Of a DNA stretch of 64,000 bases, positions 3,382-36,363 are shown one piece after another. This stretch comes from Branchiostoma floridae (lineage: Eukaryota; Chordata; Leptocardii; Amphioxiformes; Branchiostomatidae): assembly GCF_000003815.2 (NCBI RefSeq), contig NC_049983.1, positions 15,050,769 to 15,114,768 on the forward strand, read 5' to 3'. The translations under genes were made by a program, and so were the position numbers. Under the pieces are notes generated by a model. It ran no database searches. It was not told the DNA's origin and saw only the letters and a list, made by a program, of their open reading frames with translations. How positions within the stretch are numbered: the first letter of the stretch is position 1; each line of letters opens with the position of its first letter.

Positions 3382-4221
3382 GAAGACAATGCAGAGAAAA
3401 TTCAGAGAGACAGAAAGACTGCTCTAGAGAGAGTGTGCAATGTTTCCTTGCCAGAGCTGGTCCCGCCACTGTCCACCAGGCAGCTCGGCCACCTCATTGT
3501 TGATGATGAACACAAGATGCTGTACTGCTTTGTGCCCAAAGTGGCATGCACAAACTGGAAGAGGGTCATGATCAAACTGAGACATCCAGACATAGATAAA
3601 CCTCAAGACATATCCCCACGTGATGCACACGAAACATACTTTCTTCCCACCCTGAAGCGATATTCACCAGAGGCAATACAATACAGACTAGACAATTACT
3701 TCAAGTTTATGTTTGTGAGAGACCCACTGGAGAGATTACTATCAGCATACATCAACAAGTTTACCATGCCGTACAACCTCAAATTTCACCGACTGTATGG
3801 CACCAAGATCATCAGCCGTTTCCGAGAGAACCCAAGCAATGACTCTGTGCAGAGAGGAGATGATGTGATGTTTAAAGAGTTTGTACAGTACTTGTTGGAC
3901 CCACAGGCACATGGACCGCAGCTCAACGAACACTGGGACCACTACTTTAACTTGTGTCACCCCTGTCGCATACACTATGATGTCATTGGCAAATATGAAA
4001 CACTGGACCAAGACGTCAACTATGTCTTACAAAGAGCAGGTGTCGCCAATATTGTCCAGTTTCCGCCCAAACCGAAAAAGGCGCAAACAAGCACATCGCA
4101 GCTACTAGATGAGTACTTAGATGAAATTGGACCCAAGGAAGTTTTAAGACTACACAACATGTACATCTTGGACTACTTGATGTTCAACTATAGTCTTCCA
4201 AACTTTCCTGGTGAAAGATAA
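3382..4221 (+). CDS. Chondroitin 4-O-sulfotransferase-like (CHST11/12/13 family), last exon
   Basis: Golgi type II membrane sulfotransferase that would move sulfate from PAPS to the 4-O position of N-acetylgalactosamine in chondroitin or dermatan. Only the C-terminal catalytic part is here, about 279 residues. The exon follows a pyrimidine-rich acceptor ending at 3381 and is open in that frame to TAA at 4219-4221. The 5'-PSB loop is PKVACTNWKR and the 3'-PSB region is FVRDPLERLLSAY, both hallmarks of the family. RYGTKI-like, GDDV, NEHW, LCHPC, HYD and GKYET blocks and the ending LDYLMFNYSLP match CHST11-type proteins closely from memory. The N-terminal tail, membrane anchor and stem are not in this exon. 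Which of CHST11, 12 or 13 it represents cannot be decided, and the gene may predate their split. Confidence 0.88.
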   Translation, partial: EDNAEKIQRDRKTALERVCNVSLPELVPPLSTRQLGHLIVDDEHKMLYCFVPKVACTNWKRVMIKLRHPDIDKPQDISPRDAHETYFLPTLKRYSPEAIQYRLDNYFKFMFVRDPLERLLSAYINKFTMPYNLKFHRLYGTKIISRFRENPSNDSVQRGDDVMFKEFVQYLLDPQAHGPQLNEHWDHYFNLCHPCRIHYDVIGKYETLDQDVNYVLQRAGVANIVQFPPKPKKAQTSTSQLLDEYLDEIGPKEVLRLHNMYILDYLMFNYSLPNFPGER

Positions 4222-7553: not shown

Positions 7554-7653
7554 NNNNNNNNNNNNNNNNNNNNNNNNNNNNNNNNNNNNNNNNNNNNNNN
7601 NNNNNNNNNNNNNNNNNNNNNNNNNNNNNNNNNNNNNNNNNNNNNNNNNNNNN
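7554..7653. other. Assembly gap of 100 N
   Basis: Exactly 100 unknown bases, the conventional length for a gap of unknown size. Repetitive sequence, present again 300 bp downstream, begins directly at its right edge. Apparent open frames across the gap are meaningless. Confidence 0.98.
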
Positions 7654-8371: not shown

Positions 8372-8663
8372 GAGGCGTGGGTTATTTTGGCCGTCATCTC
8401 GTCAGGGAATTTCCCATGACTCATGATCATGCAGGTGCATGTTCAAACACGACACCACTGTCGCCGTAGAGGCGTGGGGGTTTTGGGCCGTCACCTCGTC
8501 AGGGAATTTCCCATGACTCATGATCATGCAGCTGCATGTTCAAACATCACACCACTGTCGCCGTAGAGGCGTGGGGGTTTTTGGCCGTCATCTCGTCAGG
8601 GAATTTCCCATGACTCATGATCATGCAGGTGCATGTCCAGACACGACACCACTGTCGCCGTAG
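8372..8663. repeat. Three-copy tandem repeat, 97-bp unit
   Basis: Units begin gaggcgtggg at 8372, 8469 and 8566, a period of 97 bp. Each contains ggccgtcatctcgtcaggg (or a one-base variant), a cccatgactcatgatcatg block and ccactgtcgccgta. Copies differ at only a few bases, so the array is young. No coding potential is evident. From 8664 to 10546 no gene is supported. Confidence 0.85.
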
Positions 8664-10551
8664 ACGTAGAGAACCGTGTTTTGTGTTGCGTACACTGGAC
8701 AAGCTTATATAACGTCTTTTGTGTGAAATGGAAGATTCAAGACTAAAGACAACTAAAGTGGTGGATTTAAAAAAAAATAGGATGGACTTTCAGGAACATC
8801 AAGTTTCCAAATGACGCATTTACACTCTTTATCCAGACCTGTCCTCGTCAGGCAGTTATTCTTTAGCTAAATCAACTGTCTTGAAAGGCACAGAAAGCCG
8901 CTTTCGGTATCAAAACCCTCATGCAGACTTCGTTATCCTCTAAGGCCCTACTTAAACACGACAATGCATATATCAAGTCTATAAATGCTGTTGAGATCTG
9001 AGGCAAAGTTCACTCAAATGACTATTGCCCTGTTGAAATATTAACATATAGAACTGCTTTTGTAAAAACACCGATCCTTAGTGCACACAGAAATTCGTGT
9101 AACCTAGCTAGTAGGGCAAAACTGGGGGTATTCCAAATAGATATGGAAGTATCAGTGTTCTTGTACTTACGTATTGGCTGAGACTGAAGCAACTGGACAT
9201 CCACACACATCCCTAACAGGTGAACGTTTTACTGTGTCAACAATACAATATGTGAAATAATTGCAAGAAGAGCTGGCTACTCCAACTTTCATGATATTCC
9301 TTCTTATGGAACACCAATTACCCTGTAGGCAATGAAAATATATGTACATTGTTAATTAAAGGAGGACTTACTGATATGTACGTCAAACATTCTTTTGCAA
9401 ATCGTCTACAAATCACGGTAAGCCAATATGCCCTTTAAAGACCAACCCCGTACTATAAAACCACCCAATAAATTCGGCTAACGTAAACTACTAGAGCTCA
9501 GTCTAAGATAAGAATAAGCGCTTATCCATTAGAGATAGAAAGAGGTCGTTATGAACAGCTATTTGTCCACGTTAGACTGTTTAAGTATAGCATACTGAAT
9601 GCAGTCTTCACGACGAGACCGAAAGAAAGTTTATTTCAAACTGTTGCCACAATTTGTCCGAGCGTTTGCCAATGAGTAGATCACCAAAAGTCTACGTTTC
9701 ATTAAAATCACAACCCCCACCTATTTCACAGAACACGGGACAGTTAAAAGATAGAGGAAATCAAACCAAATGACAGTTTGGATGATTGACAGGAAGCGTG
9801 TGAACCTGACACCTTGCTATTTTGCCGCTTAATTGAAAACGTGACAAAACCCGGATTTCTCTGATGACCCCGATAACCCGATGACCCCGGAGCAGAGAAA
9901 GCTAATACTGTCTGACACAACGTTTGGGGTTCCCACAATCAGGCCTGATATTTGTTTACTGTCTCATTTCTGTTCCTTTTCATGAACGGTAATGTCTCCC
10001 TTCGATGTGTCCGTTGTTTCCGAAGACAGACTTGGAAATGCACTGGAATTACTGATTGTTGGCTACCTGCATACGGCGGTGGCGACATCCTCGGCGCAAC
10101 CAAGGGCTTCATCATTTTGGATAACACAAAGGCATCCTTCCGTACGTTGTCCACATCATGCAGACCAACGCCAACAATTTCTTGTACGACGTATTAAGAC
10201 GTTCCCGCCACCCCACCACCTCCGAGGAGCTTGTTGTAATGCTGGACATCGCTGGATTTGCGACAACAACAACACAAGGAACCATGTGACCTATTTAGCA
10301 CCGGTGGGTCTTTTTCGACATATCCTAAGTGTGTTGAGATATTTACGAAAACGTAGTTGTCGTGTATATTTATAAATTGACAGCACAGTATTATTAGTTA
10401 TATTTTGGACCCGAGAAGCTAACGAGGAAAATATCAAGATGGACGACTTGTCTGCGTATACAGTTTTCATTTTACTATTCGTGACGGTGTATCTTGCTTT
10501 TTAGAATTCTTTAGTTTCAAAGGTTTCATTCAGGTGGCATGGAATTGCGCA

Positions 10552-10730
10552 ACGCCACTATTGTATAGTGTTAATGTTATAAGAGGTTTGGACCACCCCC
10601 ATGCAACTAGTGGTAGGGTCCGGTTGTTCATCATTATGGGTTCCATCTAGATGTTGTCAAATAGATTGTGCTCCTGACTATGCACTCACTGTCATCCTTG
10701 AGTCGTCACCGTACGTGTTCCCTATTGGCG
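10552..10730 (+). repeat. 5' LTR
   Basis: Left copy of the 179-bp repeat, identical to 14139-14317. It begins acgccactattg and ends ccctattggcg, so it lacks the common TG...CA ends. The true border may be offset by a few bases if the shared gcg is partly target-site sequence. Confidence 0.85.
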
Positions 10731-10748
10731 TGGTGGCACCGGTTGGTC
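10731..10748 (+). promoter_or_regulatory. Primer-binding site, tRNA-Leu-like
   Basis: The bases tggtggcaccggttgg directly follow the 5' LTR. As I recall metazoan tRNA-Leu(AAG), the complement of its 3' end including CCA is tggtggcagcggtggg, which agrees at 14 of 16 positions. Position and opening TGG are as expected for reverse-transcription priming. The tRNA assignment rests on memory. Confidence 0.6.
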
Positions 10749-10854
10749 TCCTAGAACCCACACACGCACCAAGAAGCTTGGATGCCACGCAACCAGGTAA
10801 ATAACGCGCAACGACGACCGGGGAAAAGGGCAGAATAGCAAGTCCGCACATGTC

Positions 10855-13173
10855 ATGGCGAGTCAACATCCGGGACCTTATGAATGGTGTTCCACACCGA
10901 CTCAACTTCCACACTTTTCTACCCCGGGTCCATCAACATCACACCCGAGGAAACGAGGACCTAAGAAGATCTGTCCCATATGTCAACAGGCAGGACGGCA
11001 AGTGTTCAACCACGTCCTTAGCACTTGTCCTTTCTTGTCAGGCGAAGAGAAATCGTACCCTCGCCCTCCCCACCAACGTCCTGACAACGTCGGGGATTCC
11101 CCACGTGCGCAGGCGAGGGGAGTCAGCGTTCGTGCTTTACCTCGCTTGGATGCCTTCCATGAGGGGCACGCAATCAGGATCAACTTAAAGTCGGGAGCCG
11201 AAACAAGCATGATCCGAGCTGCCGAAGCACAGCGTCTGAATTTACCCGTCCGTAAATCGCAACACGCAGCAAATCTCAAGTCAATCCAAGCAGATGGGCG
11301 GCGACTCTCCGTCATAGGTGAGTGCTCTACTACGTTCTACAGGGAGAAAATCCCTCTGAAATTTGATGCTTTCGTGGTTGACGACCTCGCCGAACCTATT
11401 GTAGCCGGAACTTCTTTCTTGGAATCCAACAGTTTAATCATCAACTTCAGTAAACATCAGATTCAACTTTCTGATGGATCCACCTCGAACTATTCTCCAT
11501 CCACAACGCGATCGACGCCATGCATATTACACAGTGTCTTTACCAACAACGTGCCATGCCCCAGACCTGTAACCGATACCCGAATGACACCTCATCAGTC
11601 AACCAAGATCATGCACATACTCCATGCTACCTCTATGCCCAACCCTACTATGAATGAAGTGCCAACAAAGGCAAGATCACCTACCATACTAGAGAAGAAC
11701 AAGCACCAGCCTCTCACAACACCTGTGAGGTTAGACTTAGAGTACCAGTTTTCACAACCATCAGCAGAAGCTGCAACTGCACAGGTAGAGGTAGGGTACC
11801 AACTCTCTCCTCCAACATCGGAGGCTTCCACTGCACATGAGGGAGAGTACCACACACAGCAGCTGAAGGGAGAGTACCAGTCTTCACTTCCATCAGCAGA
11901 AGGTGACACACAACAGCTGAAGGGAGAGTACCAGTCATCACCTCCATCAGCAGGTGACACACAACAGCTGAGGGGAGAGAACCAGCCTTCACTTCCATCA
12001 GCAGAAGGTGACACACAGCAGCTGAAGGGAGAGTACCAGCCTTCTCCTCCATCAGCAGAAGGTGACACACAACAGCTGAGGGGAGAGAACCAGCCTTCAC
12101 TTCCATCAGCAGAAGGTGACACACAGCAGTTGAAGGGAGAGAACCAGCCTTCACTTCCATCAGCAGAAGGTGACACACAGCAGCTGAGGGGAGAGAACCA
12201 GCCTTCACTTCCATCAGCAGAAGTTGACACACAGCAGCTGAAGGGAGAGTACCAGTCATCACCTCCATCAGCAGGTGACACACAGCAGCTGAAGGGAGAG
12301 TACCAGCCTTCACTTCCATCAGCAGGTGACACACAGCAGCTGAAGGGAGAGTACCAGTCATCACCTCCATCAGCAGGTGACACACAGCAGCTGAAGGGAG
12401 AGAACCAGCCTTCACTTCCATCAGCAGAAGGTGACACACAGCAGCTGAAGGGAGAGTACCAGCCTTCTCCTCCATCAGCAGAAGGTGACACACAACAGCT
12501 GAGGGGAGAGAACCAGCCTTCTCCTCCATCAGCAGAAGGTGACACACAGCAGCTGAAGGGAGAGTACCAGCCTTCACTTCCATCAGCAGAAGGTGACACA
12601 CAGCAGCTGAAGGGAGAGTACCAGCCTTCTCCTCCATCAGCAGAAGGTGACACACAACAGCTGAAGGGAGAGAACCAGCCTTCACTTCCATCAGTAGAAG
12701 GTGACACACAGCAGCTGAAGGGAGAGTACCAGCCTTCTCCTCCATCAGCAGAAGGTGACACACAACAGCTGAGGGGAGAGAACCAGCCTTCACTTCCATC
12801 AGCAGAAGGTGACTCACAGCAGCTGAGGGGAGAGAACCAGCCTTCACCTCCATCAGCAGAAGGTGACACACAACAGCTGAAGGGAGAGTACCAGTCATCA
12901 CCTCCATCAGCAGGTGACACACAGCAGCTGAGGGGAGAGAACCAGCCTTCTCCTCCATCAGCAGAAGGTGACACACAGCAGCTGAAGGGAGAGAACCAGT
13001 CTTCACTTCCATCAGCAGGTGACACACTGCAGCTAAAGGGAGAGTACCAACCGTCCCCTCCATCAGCAGGCGCAACACAGCAGCTGAAGGGAGAGCGTCC
13101 ACACCCGTCCGATGCTCCTGTACATCATCATCCAGCGGTTCGGCCCCCACCTAAGCCACCCCCGTCTGTGTGA
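10855..13173 (+). CDS. Retroelement protein: CCHC knuckle, inactive retropepsin-like domain, minisatellite tail
   Basis: A 772-residue ORF starting 124 nt after the LTR. Residues 40-58 hold a CCHC-type knuckle (C-X2-C-X9-H-X4-C). Residues about 104-205 read like a retropepsin of a gypsy-type element (IRINL, GAETSMI, ADGRRLSVIGE, VAGTSFLESN). However, the catalytic Asp-Thr/Ser-Gly position is Lys-Ser-Gly at residues 112-114, so proteolysis is unlikely. From about residue 333 the protein is 24 repeats of 17-18 residues with consensus GDTQQLKGEYQPSLPSA, rich in Gln, Ser, Pro and Glu and presumably disordered. It ends in a Pro-rich tail and TGA. No RT or integrase follows. The ORF has stayed open despite many units, consistent with a young copy; whether the protein is made is unknown. 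Confidence 0.7.
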   Translation: MASQHPGPYEWCSTPTQLPHFSTPGPSTSHPRKRGPKKICPICQQAGRQVFNHVLSTCPFLSGEEKSYPRPPHQRPDNVGDSPRAQARGVSVRALPRLDAFHEGHAIRINLKSGAETSMIRAAEAQRLNLPVRKSQHAANLKSIQADGRRLSVIGECSTTFYREKIPLKFDAFVVDDLAEPIVAGTSFLESNSLIINFSKHQIQLSDGSTSNYSPSTTRSTPCILHSVFTNNVPCPRPVTDTRMTPHQSTKIMHILHATSMPNPTMNEVPTKARSPTILEKNKHQPLTTPVRLDLEYQFSQPSAEAATAQVEVGYQLSPPTSEASTAHEGEYHTQQLKGEYQSSLPSAEGDTQQLKGEYQSSPPSAGDTQQLRGENQPSLPSAEGDTQQLKGEYQPSPPSAEGDTQQLRGENQPSLPSAEGDTQQLKGENQPSLPSAEGDTQQLRGENQPSLPSAEVDTQQLKGEYQSSPPSAGDTQQLKGEYQPSLPSAGDTQQLKGEYQSSPPSAGDTQQLKGENQPSLPSAEGDTQQLKGEYQPSPPSAEGDTQQLRGENQPSPPSAEGDTQQLKGEYQPSLPSAEGDTQQLKGEYQPSPPSAEGDTQQLKGENQPSLPSVEGDTQQLKGEYQPSPPSAEGDTQQLRGENQPSLPSAEGDSQQLRGENQPSPPSAEGDTQQLKGEYQSSPPSAGDTQQLRGENQPSPPSAEGDTQQLKGENQSSLPSAGDTLQLKGEYQPSPPSAGATQQLKGERPHPSDAPVHHHPAVRPPPKPPPSV
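11851..13098. repeat. In-frame minisatellite, 24 units of 51/54 bp
   Basis: Tandem units around gacacacagcagctgaaggg, gagagtaccag and cttccatcagcag. Units are 54 bp, or 51 bp where one Glu codon is missing, so length changes keep the frame. Variants alternate Lys/Arg, Tyr/Asn, Pro/Ser and Leu/Pro at four fixed positions, a mosaic typical of unequal exchange. Because the period is a multiple of three, both long antisense frames stay open too; those are by-products. Confidence 0.95.
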
Positions 13174-13182
13174 ATCAACTGG

Positions 13183-13900
13183 GAGACTGTGCTTCCGGGT
13201 CAACACGACGGTCACCCACAGAACTTTGTTTTATAGACAAAACAGAACTCACGCTCAACGTTTTCTCAAGGTCAACACAGAACCCTCTAGAGTTATACAA
13301 AGAAGTCAAGGACAGAACCTACTACAAGGTTAAAACAGAACTTTATTCATTTAGTTTCCAGGTCAACACAGAATTTATCTAGCGTACAAAGAAAGTACAA
13401 AGAACTGAAGAACAGAACTTTATGCGCAAGATCAAAACAGAACTTTATTCAATTTATTTTTCATGGTCCGTGGACTCCACACAGAACTTCTCTAGAGTAC
13501 AAAGAACTCACGGACAGAACCTAGTGCAAGATTGATACAGAATATTATTCCATTTATTCTCACCATCAACACAAAATTTATTGAGATCACAAGGAACTTA
13601 AGGACAGAACCTAATGGGAGGTTTAAACAATTTAAGACGATTTATTTCTCTATCTATGTTAACACAGAATTTTTCTAAAGTACCAGGATTCAGGAACGCA
13701 AGGACAGTATATACTACAAGGTTAAAGCAGAGCTTTATTCCATGTACTAGTATTTCTCCATGTCTACACAAAACGTATCTAGAGTGTATGGGACTCAAGA
13801 ATAGTATATACGGCAAGGACTCTACTCAGTTTATTTTTCCATATCAACACAATTTATGTAAAGTACAAGGAATGCAAGGACAACCTAATGCAAGGCTTCA
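13183..13900. repeat. Degenerate noncoding tandem repeat 3' of the retroelement ORF
   Basis: Recurring phrases in fixed order mark about five or six diverged units of roughly 100-130 bp inside the element: ggacagaacct, caaggttaaa, acagaactttattc, atttatttct, tcaacacagaattt and tagagtacaaagaact. The repeat lies between the ORF stop and the polypurine tract. Unlike the ORF minisatellite it has drifted and carries no frame. Confidence 0.65.
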
Positions 13901-14100
13901 ACAAACGCTATTCAAGTTATTGTTACCGTTATATTTGTTTACTTGTTCACTTGTTCACATATTCTGTAGTTAGTTTAACTCATGTTCCTTATATGTAGCA
14001 AGTTAATATTTGAAGACAACAGTATTCAAGTTTAGACTTCCAATACACGACATTTTACCACACCTTCTTACTCACCCTTTGTTAAGTAGTCAGAGAGTTA

Positions 14101-14131
14101 GAGAAGGAAGAAAAGAGAAGGGAAAGAAGAG
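14101..14131 (+). promoter_or_regulatory. Polypurine tract
   Basis: 31 consecutive purines (starting gagaaggaagaaaag) end eight bases before the 3' LTR. This is the expected place and composition for the primer of plus-strand DNA synthesis in an LTR retroelement. Confidence 0.8.
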
Positions 14132-14138
14132 CCAGATC

Positions 14139-14317
14139 ACGCCACTATTGTATAGTGTTAATGTTATAAGAGGTTTGGACCACCCCCATGCAACTAGTGG
14201 TAGGGTCCGGTTGTTCATCATTATGGGTTCCATCTAGATGTTGTCAAATAGATTGTGCTCCTGACTATGCACTCACTGTCATCCTTGAGTCGTCACCGTA
14301 CGTGTTCCCTATTGGCG
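14139..14317 (+). repeat. 3' LTR
   Basis: Right copy of the 179-bp repeat, identical by eye to 10552-10730. It is followed by caatcgc; the gcgca overlapping its end matches the five bases left of the 5' LTR. Confidence 0.85.
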
Positions 14318-14859
14318 CAATCGCATGCAATACAATGGGAACAGATCATGTTAGAACTAACGTTAGGGTGTTTTTTTCTACGTGTGTTTTACACATGATA
14401 CTAGTATGTCGCTGTGGCTTATAGCATGCCCTCAGTCCCCGCCACGGCCAATGGAATGTTTGGAGATGAATATGTCAAAGCTTTCAAGTTTGGTGAGATT
14501 CTTTTTTTTTCTACATGTTGGCCGGTTGTTTACTACCTTGCTCCTCTTTCCTAGCCCCCCCTTTTCCGCTATGGAATAACCCATGGTCGCTGGCCAATGA
14601 GCTGCCTAGTATTCATATTGCGTAATGCAGATGCAACGTAAACCAAGCTGATTACGAACACAGCAGTCATTTCGCTGCCAGGCAGAGAGGAGACAACACG
14701 GCTCTGGGACCTGTCTCTGATGATTAATAACGACTGCCCCCACGCACTGCACTTCGGTAAGTAATTAGCTTCCAGTTCCACTTCTGCATAGTCAAGAGGA
14801 TCTTAGAATAATTGATCGTGTTCTTTGGTCAGAGCCAGGTATAGTTGGATTATGAACAC

Positions 14860-17830: not shown

Positions 17831-19587
17831 TATTTTAGGGATCCAACTCGAATCCGTTTGCATTCGCTAGCATTTGTTACAAATACGCAAATATCCCTGC
17901 TCGAATATGGCTACATCCGATACCCTTTCCCCCAGTGGAACTTGATTTAATTGTTAGTTTTGGATTTTTCAAATGTATAGGTAAATGCAATTGACCTGTC
18001 CTTTTTGGCATTCTTGTTGCAGGGGCTCATCATAAAGATGTCTAAGAAGTACAACTATAATACTTGCAGTGAAAAGGAAACATCTCATCAACATGGACTT
18101 ATTATTCTTTTCCTTATCACTTTTATTCTTCTTATTCTTATTCAAAAGCGAATCAATATATTCGAATATTTTGAATATTTTGTTGGGCTTAATAAGTGTT
18201 CAGGTACAGGTTGATATGTGTGTGTCTCTCTGATCTCTCGATCTCAGCACAGGTCGGGCAAGAGAGATCCACACGAACTCCTACCGCTGCAAGGGACGTC
18301 GCTGATGGCTTACACTGGAAGACGAGCTGTATCACTGAAGGGAAGGACATCCGTGTGCAAATTGCTACAAGGGCACTGAGGCTGGGTGCCATGCAAAACC
18401 AGAAACAATGTTGCCCGAAGGAGCAAGGCCATGAGAGGGAAATGCCAGACCGGCAGCAGAGCCGCATGCAACCAAGCGATTGCGCTGCTATTGAAGGAAA
18501 AACTGACTGCAGTTAGAGAATTCATGGACTAACAAAAGTAACATATATGTGCTGTCTGCGTTATTTGACTTTTACGATTGCCTGTTGTCTATTCTATTAT
18601 GTCATATTAAGGAATGTAAAAAAATAATTCAATTGACCTAGACAACGACGGTCTAAAGGGTGGATATACGAATGGTAGACATCCCAACCAAATGTATATG
18701 AAATCTTTATTGACACGACAAAAGTACAGCGACTTTCGTGAGGATTATAACAAGTACTTACAATACAACTAAGCAGACGTATATGCATATTTACAGATAT
18801 GAATAAGTCAACATATTATTTCTAGCATGTCATTTACATAATTCAAACGTTGCCTGCAAATTTCTTGAGTTACAAACAGACTTTTACCAATCTAACGTTT
18901 TCGGGAGTTTCTCAACGCTACAAATACACGTCCATGCAGCCGTTTACTTTTTGGGACTTTTTGGAACTCGGAGTAATACATCAATGGGACCTTACAAGTA
19001 TATTGTGCATACAAGCTGCAGCAGCCTTTCACTCCGTCACTTACAAGAAGATACAACACAACGTTTGCTAGATGTAATAATGTATTAATGTAGTGATGTA
19101 TTATTGTACTATGATTGTTATTCTTAGACAGTTATTCGTTTGATGACGTAAACTGCAACAGACCGAGATGTACAAGTAACCAATGTTGAGTGATATGAGC
19201 GGAGTTGAGTAGATGTCTGTCAGGTAAAACAGAATACAAAGACGGAAGATTTCTACGGCAGTTCGGGAGAGCAGACATTTGTCTGGTACTGAGACAGAAT
19301 GTGAAGACAAGAGAGTGTAAGGTAAGAGAGTTCAGTTCAGGAGAGACAATAGAGAACTTCAGTTAAGGCCTGAGTGAGATAGCATCATTATGAAGTCTGT
19401 TATAATGTTAAACGTATTCCGTGCCTAGCGTACGGAAATTCTTGTCTCTGCGTCATTTCTTTATCCTTCATGTGCTGATCTTCAAATTCCAGTCGGCAAC
19501 TAAAGGAACCTGTATATATTTGTTACATGTCCAAGTTGGAGATGTTGTCGTAATTTTCCTAACTTTACAACATACTAACCCTTCATA

Positions 19588-20190
19588 CTTGTGGCTCTTG
19601 CCGTCCTGCCGTTTCCGACAAGAGCACAAGATCATATTCCCTAACCATCTCATCCAATCCTTTCATACAACACACCAACCCATCATGCTTGTGGCTCTTG
19701 ACGTCCTGCCGTTTCCGACAAGAGCACAAGGTCATATTATTTCCTAACCATCCCATCTAATCCCTTCATACAACACACTAACCTTTCATGCTTGTGGCTC
19801 TTGCCGTCCTGCCGTTTCCGACAAGAGCACAAGATCACATTTCCTAACCATCCCATCCAATTCCTTCATACAACACACCAACCCTTTATGCTTGTGGCTC
19901 TTGCCGTCCTGCCGTTTCCGACAAGAGCACAAGATCACATTTCCTAACCATCCCATCCAATTCCTTCATACAACACACCAACCCTTCATACTTGTGGCCC
20001 TTGCCGTCCTGCCGTTTCCGACAAGAGCACAAGATCACATTTCCTAACCATCCCATCCAATCCCTACATACAACACACTAACAACATTTCCTAAAGATCC
20101 CATCCAATTCCTTCATACAACACACTAACCCTTCATGCTTGTGGCTCTTGCCGTCCTGCCGTTTCCGACAAGAGCACAAGATCACATTTC
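19588..20190. repeat. Six-copy 100-bp tandem repeat with internal hairpin
   Basis: Units start cttgtggctcttg at 19588, 19688, 19791, 19891, 19991 and 20138, mostly 100 bp apart; the last interval (147 bp) contains an extra partial unit. Within each unit cttgtggctcttg can pair with caagagcacaag around a short loop, and the rest (cctaaccatcccatcc, ttcatacaacacac) is unstructured. No genuine ORF crosses the array. Nothing else recognisable was found from 20190 to 21354 apart from the presumed 5' region of the receptor gene. Confidence 0.85.
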
Positions 20191-21354
20191 CTAGTCATCT
20201 TATCACATCACTTCATACAACACACTAATCCATCAAATCCAAATGGCGCCACCCTTCCCGTCATACACCTCAAAACAAAATGGCGGCGCCCATGAATGCA
20301 ACGAAAAACAGAACAGGTTTTGCTATCGCAAACCTGTAATAAGAATACGCAGATGATTCCAGTAGGAAGAACAAATGAGCAATTGTTGATGAGGATGTAT
20401 GTAACTGACACATGTAAAAGCTACATATTTGATTTGGCAATGGGAGATTTTTTGTCCTCTGGCTCAAGTAAAACTTGTTCACATAATTCCTCTCGTTTTT
20501 ATATTTTTAGGCATTTACAGATCTATGAAAAAAGCAAATACAGTAGATATATGACATTAAAGTTTATTGATATTGTTAAATCGATGACGCTTTGGGCAAA
20601 AAATCGTAATTTAAAGCTGTACTTTCGTCTGATGTTGATGAGATATTCTAAAGAATAAAATACATGTAACTTAACGTTCAAAACTCCTGTGCTGAACGTT
20701 TTCAATTTTGCGCAGTGCATTTCTCTGGGGAGACCTTTACTTTCACTTTTTGACTGATAAGAATCAGAAGTGCGATGTTCCAAATCGTTGGTCAATCGAG
20801 GTCAAGTTGAACCAGATCGAGGTCAGCGAAGGTCAATAGCTGCAGGTAGGGCGATGTTGACGTTTTCTTCTATTTTAATCCTCATACGTACAGATGGTTT
20901 CGTGACACCCTTCGTGACACGCTTATTAAGTGAGTTCCGGTTGTGCCCTACTCCTGCAGTGCACAGGTTGTATTAATTAATCCCTGAAGCAGGATTACGT
21001 TAGAACCGCCCACTTTTCCAGGGATCTCACTTCCTCAATCCTTCTGGCTTCTCCAAGTCTGCTTTATCTCGAAAGTTATACTCTAACATGTGGTTAGACC
21101 TGTCTGTGTTTGTGAGCGCTCTGATGACTCACATGCGGGGCTGCTGTCATACTTTAATTTTGGCAGGCGGACCGGAAGTGTTGACTGGTGGTGCCCCAAC
21201 CGGGAAGTCTTCCAAACTTCAGAAAGTCTTGTCAGCAACTTTTTACTTCCCCTTCTCGGTCAGTTAGGCTGAGTTTGCAGGGCCAGCTTGATGTTACCGT
21301 GTATGTTCCTGTAAAGTTGGTCTGATTGTTAGTCTCAACAGCAGCTGTGCAAGA

Positions 21355-24300
21355 ATGGCACCACCAGGTTTTATCATGTGCTTTGTGAACTTCAGTTTGA
21401 CCCTGTGTCTGCTGTTTGCGGGAGGGAACAGCCAGCATTCCAAGGAATTTCCAAACTTCCGACCAGGGGAGGTAGGACAGGGGCTTCAGCACTTATCAGT
21501 GGACAAGAACTCAGGAAGGGTCTACCTGGGAGCTACCAATATCTTGTACCAGCTGTCTGCTGACCTTGAGCTGCAGAAAACCTACAAGTCTGGGCCGGTT
21601 TGGGACAGTCCGAGATGCGGACCATTCGCTCAGCATTGCAGGGAAGGAAAGGTCCTGTCAGACAACGAAAACAAGGTTCTACTTGTTGACGAGTCGCTCG
21701 GAGTCCTCCTAGCATGTGGATCAGTACTGCAGGGCGCCTGTTCGGTCCATCCTCTGGACAACATTGCATCGGGACAATATGTTCTCAATGATGACGACAG
21801 GGCCACATATGTAGCCTCAGGTGAATCAGCTGTCGCCTTCTTCGCACCTGGGCATGATGGTTCTCAAAGTCTGTATGTAGGGTCAGAATATGAACCTGAC
21901 AAGCCAGCTGAGTTCTCCATCCCTGCAGTTTCAACAAGAACACTCAGTCACACCACAGAATACAAGTTCAACTTCGCTCTTCAAACTCAGCATCAGCGTT
22001 CGTATGTCTCTGTGAACAGCAACTATGCCGCAGATTACCGAATCAAATATGTGGATGGTTTCAGTCACGATGGCTTCAGTTACTTCCTCACAGTTCAGAA
22101 GACATCCGTTGACTCACAGTCCTATCACTCCAGACTTGTCCGTGTTTGCCAGAATGACAGAGCCTATTTCTCCTACACTGAACTCCCCATCACCTGTTAT
22201 GGTCACAATGAAAAAGCCTATGGCATCATACAGGCTGCTGCCTTGCACAAGCCTGGAGGCAACCTGACTTGGGTCTACCCTGGTATGACCACAACAGATG
22301 AGGTTCTATTTGCTGTCTTTGCAGAGAGTGAATCTGAGGACAGCCCAGTCCCTAAAAACGGCTCAGTCCTGTGCACCTTCCCTATGTCAGATGTTCGTGC
22401 ACATTTTCAGGATGGAATCCAGTCCTGTTACGGAGGCGAGGGACAGCCAGGTCTGGCATTTCTGTACCAGCCAGGCCACAACAGAGTCTGCCAGGAGACA
22501 GTAAGTGGTTTGAGTTGCTTACAGCAAACCTATGATTTCTCACAAGGTGTCAGTTGACCATGTTTTCATAGCAAACAGGACTTAAAAGCATTTAGACCTG
22601 CAGCTCAGATTTAGTTTGAAATTTATGTTTTGGAAAGATTGGGGATCTGTGAAACATGGTCTCCCTACAGATAAAATTCTTTAGTAGAGTGTTACTCTGA
22701 TAAGTCTAAGGTATCCAACTATGACTCACTTTGAAAGACAGAAAACATCTGCTCTTGATCCTATGAGTCACACATTGAAAGCAGTCAGCAACTTTCTTTC
22801 ACCTGTATAGTTCTTGGGTTTTAAAGAGAAATTGCAGTTCCATTTCCATCTTAGTACACATCTCAGTTTTCAACAGGAAACCAAATGTCTGTTGTCTGAC
22901 ATACATTGTACCTGTATAGAGAGAAAAGTGGCCACTTAACATATCTGCTTAATCATGCTGAACTTGCACACTTGCTGTCTCATGTCTGTCACCAGGAAAG
23001 CCTTGGTGAAAGGCAAGAGTGGCTCATTGCAGGAACTTGGAGGAAGGTCACCTGGCTGACAGTATTTAATAACTGTCAGGTCAGGAATGACTGTGGTTTA
23101 ATACTAGAAAAAAAGACTTGGTCATTACATGTAGACAAATTCTACTATAATTAGTATTTTTTGTTTAGACTACAGAAATAGATGAAGATTTCTGTGGGTC
23201 TGGTGTGATTGGTCCAATTGAAATCTCGGAGGATGGAGAGCTGTATGACTACAGTGTCCTGGATGAAGACAGCTTCTCTGACAAGCTGGTCACTAGCCTG
23301 GCTGTCACTGTGCAACAGGGACACACAGTGGCCATGCTTGGTACTGCAGATGGATTCATTCATAAGGTACGGTAGATTTGGGGGTAGGGAAAGTATTCAG
23401 TCTTCTCAGTTGTTTTAAGTTCACGCTTGAAACAATGAGATAGACAGGCAGAAAACAGACCAAGATTTTTTGTGGTGGTCTTAAGTTTGTGTTGAACAGG
23501 TCACCGTAAGAGCCACTAATATTGAACGACAAAAAAAATTCAATGTTTAGAGTAGATTGCATGCTATATTTATTTTGAAGTACTTGTAAATTTCTATGTC
23601 CATCATTGAAACTGATTGTGATTAGAGGGTTGAAGGTGTTTGAGCAACATAACTGAATTGAATGACCAATTGCAACATCGTAATTAAGGTACCGGTGCTT
23701 AAAAGTCTAATCATGATATCATAATTCAAACTTTTATCTGCATTGCCAGATTATGCTGGATGATCATATGGATAACAAACCCCTCATCAGCCTGGATGTT
23801 GGACATGGACATCCCATCAACAGGGACATGGAGATGGACCCCTCCGAGGAGCACCTGTATGTCATGGCAGGGGAACAGGTGGGTGTTCCTGTTTGGAGCC
23901 ATATCATCTGTGATTGACCCTCTTTTTATTTCTACCAGACTGCAATTGCAATCAGTGACCAAAGTTAGATTTGTTTAAGCCTTGATTTCATAATTAGGAT
24001 ATGGTTCAATATGGTGTAAAAGCATAATTTAAAGGACAACAAAACAAACACAACTTTAAAAAGTTATCTCTTAAATTTGTTGAGCAATCTTTAGTTGTTC
24101 AGTGGCCTCAAGTGAAAGGTGGGTGATTCTAAAAAGGTGTACATGAATTTGAATTTTGTTTCGTGATCATCATAGACACTAAATAACCTTAATTCTTAGT
24201 CTGAGTGTTGTTGTGATAAGAAGGTGTGCAGTGTGTGCCTCTTGAATACCAAAAATAGATGCATGTTTACTGAAGATGCGAAATGCAAAATTTTGCTTCC

Positions 24301-30300: not shown

Positions 30301-33052
30301 ATCTCAAGTTGTACTACAGGACTAGAAATATACATAATGTGATGTTTTCATGGAAGCTTATCTGTGTTGGTAGTAATCATAGTACAATACTCAAATTTCT
30401 TCCATCACAGGTATACACGGGTCAAATTTTCATCGACCACTGGTGCCTTCTTCAGGATCAATGGTCTTTTAGAAGGTGATAGTGGTCGATGAAAATTTGA
30501 TCCGTGTATACCTTAGCGTTGGAAGAAAGTTTAGCATTGTACTATAATGTTATGTTATTTATCATATGTATGTAAAGTACTGTCAGTAGAATATATCTTG
30601 TGAATGTGGAGGAGTAGACTGTGTGGTATTTGGCAGGTCAGTTTTTGTCAATTTTCTTACAGTGTATGAACTCCTGTTACTGTTTGATCTTACATGCTCC
30701 GATGGTTAACTGTGATTCCAGTTGCTGACTGTACAAGACATCCTAGGATTTGCACTGCAAGTGTGCAAGGGAATGGCGTATCTATCCAGTCTGAAGTTTG
30801 TTCACAGAGACCTGGCTGCCAGGAACTGCATGTGAGCAGGCTGTTCTATATGATTTTATGTAGTTATGCTTAACTTCATGTTATCGTTTGTTTGGACAGC
30901 TGGTTTACTTATGTCACAGACTGTTCGATAGACGCATGTGACCCTTACACTGGCAAAAACCTGTTGAAAACCTTCCTCACACTATCAAAGACCTGTCCCT
31001 GGTACTGAAAACCTTCCTTATACTAACAAAGACCTGTCCCTGGTGCTGAAAACCTTCCTCATCCTAACAAAAACCTGCCCCTGGTGCTGAAAACCTTCCT
31101 CACGCTATCAAAGACCTGTTCTTGGTGCTGAAAACCTTCCTCACCCTATCAAAGACCTGTCCCTGGTGCTGAAAACCTTCCTCATCCTAACAAAGGCCTG
31201 TCCCTGGTGCTGAAAACCTTCCTCACACTATCAAAGACCTGTTCTTGGTGCTGAAAACCTTCCTCACCCTATCAAAGACCTGTCCCTGGTGCTGAAAACC
31301 TTCCTCACCCTATCAAAGACCTGTCCCTGGTGCTGAAAACCTTCCTCACACTATCAAAGACCTGTCCTTGGTGCTGAAAACCTTCCTCACACTATCAAAG
31401 ACCTGTCCCTGGTGCTGAAAGCCTTCCTCATCCTAACAAAGACCTGTTCTTGGTGCTGAAAACCTTCCTCATCCTAACAAAGACCTGTCCTTGGTGCTGA
31501 AAACCTTCCTCACCCTAACAAAGACCTGTCCCTGGTGCTGAAAGCCTTCCTCATCCTAACAAAGACCTGTTCCTGGTGCTGAAAACCTTCCTCATCCTAA
31601 CAAAGACCTGTCCTTGGTGCTAAACACCATCTAAATGCCTTAAGGAAACTGTCCTTGGTACTGAACACATTCCACACACTTACAAAGACCTATCCCTGGT
31701 ACTGAAGACGATTCACATGCCTTGAAGGAACTGTTCCTGGTACTGAACACCAGCGAAGACCAGTTCATTTATGGAATGGAATTGTCATTTCTTCCTCTGA
31801 TTTTGGCTGAAATGATTGCTTGATCAATGGATCATTCTGCTAATTGGATGATTACCCAAAGTTTTTCACTAAGTTTCTCCCACCTTTTCCCTCCAGGGTT
31901 AGTGAAGACTTGGTGGTGAAGGTGGCAGATTTTGGATTGTCCCGAGACCTGTATGAGAAGGACTACTATACCTGTGGGGATAAGAAGGCCAGACTGCCTG
32001 TCAAGTGGATGGCACTGGAGAGTTTGTTAGATGGTACCTACACGACCAAGAGTGATGTGGTTAGTACTAGTATGTAGAATCTTGTTCATCTAGATGACAT
32101 ATCCTAGTGTGCTAGAAAAGGCGTTTCTTGTATGTGTGCATATCAGATTTTCTCTAGGGTATTCTTCCCATAGTATCCACTGCTATTTCGGTAGATACGT
32201 ATGGGCAGAACATTCATCATTGTTGTATCTAAATGATTATCTACTTCAATCATAGGCTCCATAGAAACATTTTGATTGGTCTTTCCAGTGGTCCTTTGGA
32301 GTGTTGATGTGGGAGCTAGCCATGAGAGGAGTGAACCCATACCCAGATGTGGACAACTTTGACCTGGCCGTGTACCTACAGCGGGGCAGCAGGCTGAGGC
32401 AGCCAAAGTACTGCCCAGATCACATGTAAGTACTGTAGTGGGGGAATATAGCCTTGAAAACCCACTCTTTCCATGGGGCTCCAAGCAGGTGGAAGTAATA
32501 TCAACAAACTGCACTAAACTGTAATGTTACATTTCTTAAGCAATGCCATGCAAGGTTACATTTTTGTACATCTAACGTTATACTGCTAGATAGTCTTCAA
32601 GATCTCACAGTGTGACAGTGAGTTGAATCATTGTAAGCTTAATTGTTTGAAATATTAGTGCTTGGTGAGTTCATTGTTAACTAATTCACTATTGAGAAGT
32701 CACCAGTAACCAATTTGATTGTAGTAGGAACCAATTTGATTGTGGATGCTGTCACTACTAAACAAAAGATTGCTGATTACTGGTCTGTGGCAGTCTCATT
32801 ACCAGATCTTATATAAAATGAACTTCAATGAACTTTTGGTTTCACCTATCTAAGTTTCTGTTATTTCTTCCCACAAACAGCTATACCATGATGCAGCAGT
32901 GCTGGCAGGTAGAGCCTGACCTCCGACCGACCTTTGATGACCTTGTGTCCCGGCTGAGTGAGGCATTACCACCCACCAGCCCTGTTCCTGAGGGAGAACA
33001 ATCTGTTCAAGACTTTGAAGAATGCTATACTGATGTCTTAGCAAGAGCATGA
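21355..33052 (+). CDS. MET: MET/RON-family receptor tyrosine kinase, complete, 20 coding exons
   Basis: Single-pass receptor kinase of the hepatocyte-growth-factor receptor family. Exons: 21355-22500, 23169-23366, 23750-23878, 24848-25027, 25446-25594, 26006-26135, 26507-26643, 26877-27041, 27371-27476, 27675-27920, 28197-28286, 28442-28504, 28678-28975, 29337-29474, 29699-29782, 30084-30268, 30722-30831, 31897-32059, 32289-32425, 32881-33052. All junctions are GT-AG and phase-consistent, giving 1341 residues (human MET about 1390). Order: signal peptide ([16 protein letters not shown]), sema to about 491, PSI 492-551, four IPT-like domains to about 900, membrane segment about 939-961, kinase from 1057. 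Visible motifs: GKGFFGSV, VAIK (K1083), HRDLAARN (D1178), DFG 1196-1198, activation-loop YY 1208/1209 and PVKWMALE. The furin-type basic site and the C-terminal docking tyrosine pair are absent. It probably predates the vertebrate MET/MST1R split. The start is the first Met before the signal peptide; 5' noncoding exons were not resolved. Confidence 0.95.
30399..30525. repeat. Foldback element in receptor intron 16
   Basis: Arms beginning cttcca at 30399 and ending ggaag at 30525 are complementary over about 53 bp with few mismatches (core tatacacgg, tcaaattttcatcgaccac), separated by roughly 18 bases. It resembles a palindromic miniature element, sits wholly within an intron and has no coding capacity. 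Confidence 0.75.
30962..31622. repeat. 41-bp minisatellite in receptor intron 17, about 16 units
   Basis: Consensus phrases are aaagacctgtccctggtgct, gaaaaccttcctca and ccctatc. About sixteen units span 660 bp, with variants cacactatc, caccctatc and catcctaac interleaved. Diverged half-units continue to about 31760. The array separates the exon with the catalytic loop from the exon with the DFG motif, so instability would alter intron length only. Confidence 0.9.
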
Positions 33053-35349: not shown

Positions 35350-36363
35350 TCATGAGAAACTGGGAGCCCTGAGTTTGGAGCACTGTTTCAGTCTTTCTTT
35401 TACCTCCTGTGCAACAGCCAAGACTTCCTCAGGAGTGCCCTTTTCTATAACTTCCCTCGCGTATGTGCAGCTACCTCGAACACGGGCTGCGCTCACGGCT
35501 ACCGCGGTGATGTTCTCTAACAACTGCCTGTTCTTTGTGGTCTCCACACGTTTGAGCTGCTTTATTCTCTCGTCTCTTTCCATCTGTATCGTCTGTATAG
35601 CCCGCCTGGCTTGCTCTTCTATCTTCGCAATATTTTCTTCACATTGTTGCTGCCATACTTCACGCCTTGTATTCAGCTCTTGTAGTCTCTTCTCGTGAAG
35701 TGCAGCAACCTTCTCTGTCTCCACCAGGAGCGCCCTGACTTCCGAAGTTTCTCTCTCAGCGGTCTCCCGTACCTGTGAGTGCAGACGTGCTCTGTGTTTG
35801 GAGAGGCTGCCTTTTCGACATATGAAGTCATGACAAGACTTACAATAGAGGACATCAGGGTCTGCGTGTAATGAATGCGAAGTTCGTTCCGTCTCTTGGG
35901 TTCCTTCTGCTTTACTCTCTGTCGGTGTGGACGAGAACATTTTTCGACGCGGTGACGCCCTCGTGCGAAGGTCGGAGCCGACGCAGTTCTGACACAGGAA
36001 GTCGTCGCAATTATCACGATACCTGGTTGTACTGGACATGTCGCCACAGCTTCTACACACAGCCCTCGATGCTGAGCGCCTTTCTGGAGCCTCCTCGCGG
36101 TGTGTTGCGTTGCGGACCATGTCGTGCAGTTTGCCAACGAAAAAGTTGTCCTTTAAACCGGCGATACCGTTCTCATACTGATATGTAGAAATCTGTCGAC
36201 AAGTCGGGCAACAGATCTTCGTCTTGTTCCCGACCATTCGCTCCAGACACCGCCGACAGAAAGTGTGAAGGCACGGGAGAACTTTCGGTTGTCTATAGTC
36301 GTCCAAACAGATCTGACAGACCAGAAACTCCCGAGTGATATCACTTACCAGTTTGTCCGCCAT
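35350..36363 (-). CDS. Intronless TRIM-like RING/B-box/coiled-coil protein
   Basis: A 337-residue single-exon ORF, probably an E3 ubiquitin ligase. Residues 16-55 form a C3HC4 RING (C16, C19, C31, H33, C36, C39, C52, C55; CQICLDDY, LPCLHTFCRRC, CPTCRQ). Residues about 103-127 (C103, C106, C119, C124, C127) resemble a B-box 1 and 174-195 (C174, C177, C182, H190, H195) a B-box 2, both with odd spacing. Charged heptad-like sequence from about 200 to 300 is a likely coiled coil. The protein then ends: no NHL, B30.2 or other substrate-binding domain follows. It recalls TRIM56- or TRIM2/3-type proteins, which are strongly expanded in amphioxus. Lack of introns suggests origin by retroposition or membership of that expansion. 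Start is the first Met, 15 residues before the first RING Cys. Confidence 0.85.
   Translation of the reverse strand: MADKLVSDITREFLVCQICLDDYRQPKVLPCLHTFCRRCLERMVGNKTKICCPTCRQISTYQYENGIAGLKDNFFVGKLHDMVRNATHREEAPERRSASRAVCRSCGDMSSTTRYRDNCDDFLCQNCVGSDLRTRASPRRKMFSSTPTESKAEGTQETERTSHSLHADPDVLYCKSCHDFICRKGSLSKHRARLHSQVRETAERETSEVRALLVETEKVAALHEKRLQELNTRREVWQQQCEENIAKIEEQARRAIQTIQMERDERIKQLKRVETTKNRQLLENITAVAVSAARVRGSCTYAREVIEKGTPEEVLAVAQEVKERLKQCSKLRAPSFS

Follow-up and report, generated by a model that had tools for sequence, protein, structure and literature searches.

The window analysed here, the whole 64,000-nucleotide (64-kb) stretch of Branchiostoma floridae contig NC_049983.1, carries at 10553-14317 a long terminal repeat (LTR) element with both of its ends. 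We place the probability at roughly 0.88 that this element is a non-autonomous Troyka (Kuafuorterviridae) that was moved in trans and encodes a capsid-less remnant of Gag and protease. This reading is based on the agreement of several features with the published marks of Troyka, namely LTRs starting with CGCCA and ending with TGGCG, a CAA target-site duplication, the lengths of the parts, and a zinc knuckle of the form CX2CX9HX4C. Troyka itself was reportedly treated earlier by Kapitonov and Jurka in 2008. The initial annotation had described the locus as a young non-autonomous LTR element, a description that is supported here although it overlooked the Troyka marks. The element would be a fresh member of an already known kind of mobile element, and its single open reading frame (ORF), in which a dead protease is joined to a minisatellite, is a curiosity rather than a demonstrated new function.

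The bounds of the element derive from a direct repeat at 10552-10730 and 14139-14317, whose copies are 100% identical across 179 bp. Their identity had been claimed before and holds over this full length. Nevertheless, we read the LTR itself as 178 bp and not 179, assigning the A that opens the left copy to the CAA duplication, in which case the A before the right LTR is a coincidence. The 5′ LTR (CGCCA...TGGCG) thus read spans 10553-10730 and the identical 3′ LTR 14140-14317, both on the plus strand, and the internal part between them measures 3,409 bp. The duplicated CAA, which has no strand assigned, stands at 10550-10552 on the left and at 14318-14320 on the right. A scan for every CGCCA...TGGCG pair in the window, 1.7-8.5 kb apart and with equal 3-bp flanks, returned two pairs, both ending at 14317. 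One starts at 10553 and is the element; the other starts at 10169 and was taken as chance. A short palindrome noticed by eye at the LTR start (CACTAT-TGT-ATAGTG, 10556-10570) overlaps the CGCCA end and is possibly an integrase or promoter feature, or else chance.

Troyka was recently proposed as a separate superfamily of LTR elements and is known from aquatic animals only, lancelets among them, according to the accessible text of the proposal (Kojima 2025, PMC12440569). Kuafuorterviridae denotes the same lineage, and Troykas of B. floridae and Nematostella have been placed in it; that family was detected through its reverse transcriptase (RT), which distinguishes its known members from the present copy (PMC11673190). 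Troyka LTRs start with CGCCA in 573 of 603 cases and end with TGGCG in 522 of 603, within a general form 5′-CG...CG-3′ (PMC12440569), and both ends are those observed here. Insertions with known empty sites carry 3-bp duplications, apart from one 4-bp exception (PMC12440569), and the present element is flanked by CAA on both sides, as seen in one insertion. The LTR of 178 bp and the internal part of 3,409 bp fall within the reported sizes of 100-400 bp and 1,553-7,691 bp, respectively (PMC12440569). Finally, the zinc finger at the end of Troyka Gag has the form CX2CX8-10HX4C and is followed by a retropepsin in Gag-Pol (PMC12440569). The same order occurs here as CX2CX9HX4C and a retropepsin-like segment recognised through a sub-threshold Pfam match.

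Differences lie in the coding content. In most Troykas, RT, RNase H and integrase form part of a single Gag-Pol (PMC12440569), whereas this element has no recognised capsid, its protease has lost the catalytic Asp, and only a linker and a minisatellite follow the protease in frame. Further marks of the group are its own RT branch and an integrase without the GPF/Y motif (PMC12440569). Non-autonomous Troykas are a reported phenomenon, with 70 cases of which 62 come from sea urchin, and the accessible text of that source does not describe an open Gag-protease-minisatellite frame among them (PMC12440569). Within the accessible text of the literature on non-autonomous, Gag-only, Troyka and repeat-bearing LTR elements, no description of this ORF was found, which is not proof of its absence from print. 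The portion of PMC5802833 that was available does not mention Troyka.

The ORF occupies 10855-13173 on the plus strand, encodes 772 amino acids (aa) and is stop-free in its frame. The open frame starts at 10801, which leaves at most 57 codons ahead of the knuckle. A pattern match places the knuckle, the putative end of Gag, at aa 40-58 (10972-11028, plus strand). The CCHC knuckle of the initial annotation is therefore present, with the spacing CX2CX9HX4C rather than CX2CX4HX4C. Candidate matches of zf-RVT, zf_CopZ and zf-Di19 to the knuckle region were rejected as lying under the Pfam cut-off. PHROGs gave one chance-level match only (E 0.1). Beyond the knuckle follows a domain at aa 102-209 (11158-11481, plus strand; limits set by eye) that we call retropepsin-like because of weak Pfam scores combined with the motif order. 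The family gag-asp_proteas matched aa 103-190 with E 0.019 (16 bits) when the whole ORF was the query, and the value improved to E 0.0026 (18.8 bits) for aa 1-215 and to E 0.00059 (20.8 bits) for the protease segment alone. Chains of ASPRV1 (Retroviral-like aspartic protease 1) also matched weakly (E 0.045). No Gag capsid family was among the Pfam matches of the ORF or of its aa 1-215 and protease segments.

An active retropepsin carries the catalytic motif Asp-Thr/Ser-Gly, and in its place this segment has Lys-Ser-Gly at aa 112-114. The replacement had been noted before, and the register of the ASPRV1 alignment bears it out within a weakly matched, retropepsin-like segment. Lys112 of LKSGAE, encoded by AAG at 11188-11190 on the plus strand, faces an Asn in the ASPRV1 chain, within the motif VNSGA, at a position that is presumably Asp in wild-type ASPRV1. 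A protease without its Asp should be non-catalytic. Nonetheless, the first 332 codons of the ORF, those ahead of the repeat array, contain no stop, as against 10-23 stops in each of the five other frames. Because of this difference, these codons are, as far as the reading frames tell, descended from coding sequence; about 37 of them consist of diverged edge copies of the repeat.

The remainder of the ORF is dominated by an in-frame minisatellite on the plus strand at 11852-13095, which Tandem Repeats Finder (TRF) resolved into 23.4 copies of 54/51-bp units. Counted by their Gly-Glu-Tyr/Asn-Gln (GE[YN]Q) start, the units number 23 and are 17 or 18 codons long. The Gln/Pro/Ser repeats of the initial annotation are thus in frame, but they number 23 and not 24; TRF gave 23.4 at a period of 54 bp. 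Diverged edge copies of the unit, also in frame, adjoin the upstream edge of the array (11740-11851, plus strand). Unit lengths vary by whole codons, which is partly so by construction, as the unit boundaries were set in frame. The array is open in one plus-strand frame and two minus-strand frames, and it stays open at any copy number because the unit is a multiple of three without a stop. A minus-strand ORF of 449 aa (11714-13063) runs through the array and was rejected as a gene, being a by-effect of the repeat unit. Several family matches were likewise set aside as repeat artefacts. In the ORF these are Pput2613-deam, Tnp_DNA_bind and CsbD, all within the array, below cut-off and present as whole-protein sums only. 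On the minus strand they are DUF3704 and ParD_like, whose summed scores exceed the cut-offs, and PufQ, which stays below; all three lie in the array and none has a single stretch that passes.

Signals expected of a reverse-transcribed element flank the coding part. The sequence TGGTGGCACCGG adjoins the end of the 5′ LTR at the position expected of a primer-binding site, with TGG standing first after the LTR. The candidate site, directly 3′ of the 5′ LTR, covers 10731-10746 on the plus strand and starts TGGTGGCACC. It presumably agrees with animal tRNA-Leu 3′ ends at 14 of 16 bases. A candidate polypurine tract of 32 purines lies at 14100-14131 and is the sole plus-strand purine run of at least 20 in the window. 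Folding revealed no packaging structure in the leader RNA (z 0.49; 137 of 200 shuffles fold equally well) or in the RNA of the 3′ part (z 1.84; 19 of 20 shuffles). No Rfam match within the window reached its gathering score, and ARAGORN reported no tRNA there.

These placements bear on the explanation that one of the LTRs, or else the repeat array, is an artefactual duplicate made in assembly, which we consider scarcely credible. The array count does hinge on assembly quality, and the window contains an assembly gap of 100 N. However, this gap (7554-7653) lies outside the element, 2.9 kb upstream, the primer site and purine run are about rightly placed inside the LTR pair, and the target duplication flanks that pair. 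The identical LTRs and intact ends support the earlier claim of a recent insertion, but its age is bounded only loosely, because zero differences in 178 bp merely cap LTR divergence at about 1.7% (95% upper bound, rule of three by hand).

The claim of non-autonomy is likewise borne out. An autonomous Troyka encodes RT, RNase H and integrase, and no match to any of the three was obtained in the ORF or in the 8 frames scanned among the 12 stop-to-stop frames of at least 30 aa in the 3′ part. In the 3′ part, candidate matches of CRAL_TRIO and DUF2691 were rejected as below cut-off. This part (13174-14139, plus strand) has no long ORF, and self-comparison detects imperfect repeats of about 100 bp within it, at about 13267-13904. 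The repeats share a CAGAACTTTATTC-like core, are spaced about 80-115 bp and have diverged further than the coding array; they are 61-85% alike ungapped and 66-68% alike in the three longest BLAST pairings. This greater divergence suggests that they predate the coding array.

The same Troyka identity could also describe a single fresh defective copy, produced by one internal deletion of a full-length Troyka in reverse transcription and belonging to no family. The identity of the LTRs speaks for such an event, and by BLAST no segment of the element recurs elsewhere in the window. Against a single deletion, the repeats of the 3′ part are already diverged, the scanned 3′ frames retain no remnant of RT or integrase, and the loss of the active site takes two changes. 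Together, these three observations argue for an older non-autonomous lineage over a one-step deletion, which we regard as unlikely.

Several findings weigh against the Troyka identification. The CGCCA and TGGCG ends together with a 3-bp duplication are, in Kojima's account, a clear indicator though not a conclusive one (PMC12440569). The copy has no RT that could be placed by phylogeny. Every gag-asp_proteas score remains below the curated cut-off of 28.2 bits, so that the match is weak yet correctly placed. Scans for relatives of aa 1-215 yielded 12 candidate stretches in a viral contig collection and 87 in a genome contig collection, none of them confirmed, and as both covered viral and prokaryote collections they say little on animals. 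AlphaFold models computed without relatives reached a mean predicted local distance difference test (pLDDT) score of 36.3 for aa 1-215 and 44.5 for the protease segment of 113 aa, values too poor to judge the fold. The primer site and purine run, which had been called intact, are both about in place, but 8 bases separate the run from the 3′ LTR. Lastly, GCG precedes CAA on both sides of the element, so that GCGCAA as a duplication of 6 bp, combined with an LTR that ends in CTATTG, is formally possible; this alternative requires chance agreement of the bases after CTATTG in the 5′ copy.

The last point is also the opening for a Ty3/Gypsy (Metaviridae) or other conventional LTR element with unusual ends. 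Such elements share the order of knuckle and protease with the present one (PMC12440569), and the longer duplication, judged from one insertion, would suit them. The conventional pattern, however, consists of TG...CA ends, a duplication of 4-6 bp and a knuckle of the form CX2CX4HX4C (PMC12440569). Here the ends are CG...CG and the duplication appears to be 3 bp, with the GCGCAA caveat on its length, and the combination of CGCCA/TGGCG, 3-bp duplication and CX2CX9HX4C falls jointly outside that pattern (PMC12440569). We therefore hold a conventional element to be very improbable.

As a non-autonomous Troyka, the element would have had a full-length Troyka as its ancestor and would since have shed the capsid region of Gag together with all that lay downstream of the protease. 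Packaging of its RNA, reverse transcription and integration may have been carried out in trans by the proteins of a full-length Troyka in the same genome, which would recognise the LTR ends, the primer site and the purine tract. The ORF would represent a stump of the Gag end and protease, and its C-terminal tail may have arisen from a Gln/Pro/Ser-rich stretch that grew into a minisatellite, possibly via template switching in reverse transcription. A comparable case is provided by TR-GAG elements, which are plant elements with an ORF for a Gag capsid domain. Both kinds are non-autonomous LTR elements retaining a Gag-related ORF. In contrast to TR-GAG, the present element lacks a capsid family among its Pfam matches, combines the Gag end with a dead protease, and is apparently an animal Troyka. 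Tandem repeats are also known from Tat/Ogre elements, where they occupy plant 3′ untranslated regions (PMC7004042), whereas the array described here lies in frame within an ORF and is accompanied by a second, diverged array in the 3′ part. For the 3′ repeats of Ogre, growth during element replication has been hypothesised (PMC7004042), and the tandem repeats here may have expanded in a like manner.

Whether the protein matters is a separate question. The initial annotation took the open 772-codon frame as a suggestion that it does. The 332 codons before the array are coding-derived, but the other 440 of the 772 sit in or after an array that is open on both strands and would be open regardless, so that only the former count and the frame as a whole is weak evidence of function. 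A young copy, moreover, simply inherits its open frame, which weakens the sign further. We consider a by-product about twice as likely as a needed protein.

The alternative, again with Troyka identity, is a protein that is needed, with its frame kept by selection among copies. It would act as a capsid-less RNA-binding adaptor made of the knuckle, a dead but possibly dimerising protease fold and a flexible Gln/Pro/Ser tail, and would assist the entry of its own RNA into partner Troyka particles or interfere with the partner's protease. This remains a tentative, minority possibility. In its favour, the 332 pre-array codons are open despite the lost active site, and reaching Lys from either codon for Asp takes two base changes. 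In a model of neutral change that assumes transition bias, 0.1 indels per substitution and an Asp ancestor, just 0.4-2.4% of Asp losses reach that far at divergences of 0.005-0.03, and the frame stays open with a probability of 0.59 to 0.04 over the divergences 0.005 to 0.03. The two-step change from Asp to Lys gives a hint that the frame stayed open after the active site had been lost. Variants among the 23 repeat units point the same way, as 9 of 19 are silent against 29% expected (one-sided p=0.07), and the 10 non-silent ones include no stop (0 of 19; chance probability 0.23). The whole-codon differences in unit length agree as well, with the reservation about their construction given above. 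However, these hints are weak and post hoc, the Asp ancestor and the indel rate are assumed, and the repeat variants are not independent. The diverged edge copies gave ratios of non-synonymous to synonymous rates (dN/dS) of 0.81, 0.63 and 0.40 over 17 codons each, too few sites to separate these values from 1. The most far-reaching version, a non-autonomous Troyka lineage whose pseudoenzyme stump and new repeat tail are selected, bind the element's own RNA and enlist or dampen the particles of full-length Troykas, is in our estimate doubtful to improbable.

Among seven window ORFs scanned, three had Pfam family matches and the other four had none. Likely host-gene exons encode a sulfotransferase at 3517-4221 (Sulfotransfer_2, E 2.6e-63), a Sema domain at 21355-22557 (Pfam E 1.7e-7) and, on the minus strand, a RING finger at 35350-36363 (Pfam E 1.5e-9); the element sits between the first two. 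The mean guanine-cytosine content of the window is near 42%. Other tandem repeats reported by TRF include a 97-bp unit present three times at 8372-8664, about 2 kb upstream of the element, an array of about 100-bp units at 19566-20228 (5.1 copies, with overlapping rows of periods 203, 147 and 47 bp), and a minisatellite outside the element at 30965-31706 with 18 copies of a 41-bp unit.

With its intact ends and its open, capsid-less Gag-protease frame, this young copy offers a good test case for purposeful retention. Should the protein prove to serve the element, the latter would be a parasite of a retroelement that carries its own helper protein. If the element is ordinary, the CGCCA/TGGCG ends together with the 3-bp duplication would still be a useful flag for Troyka in raw sequence.

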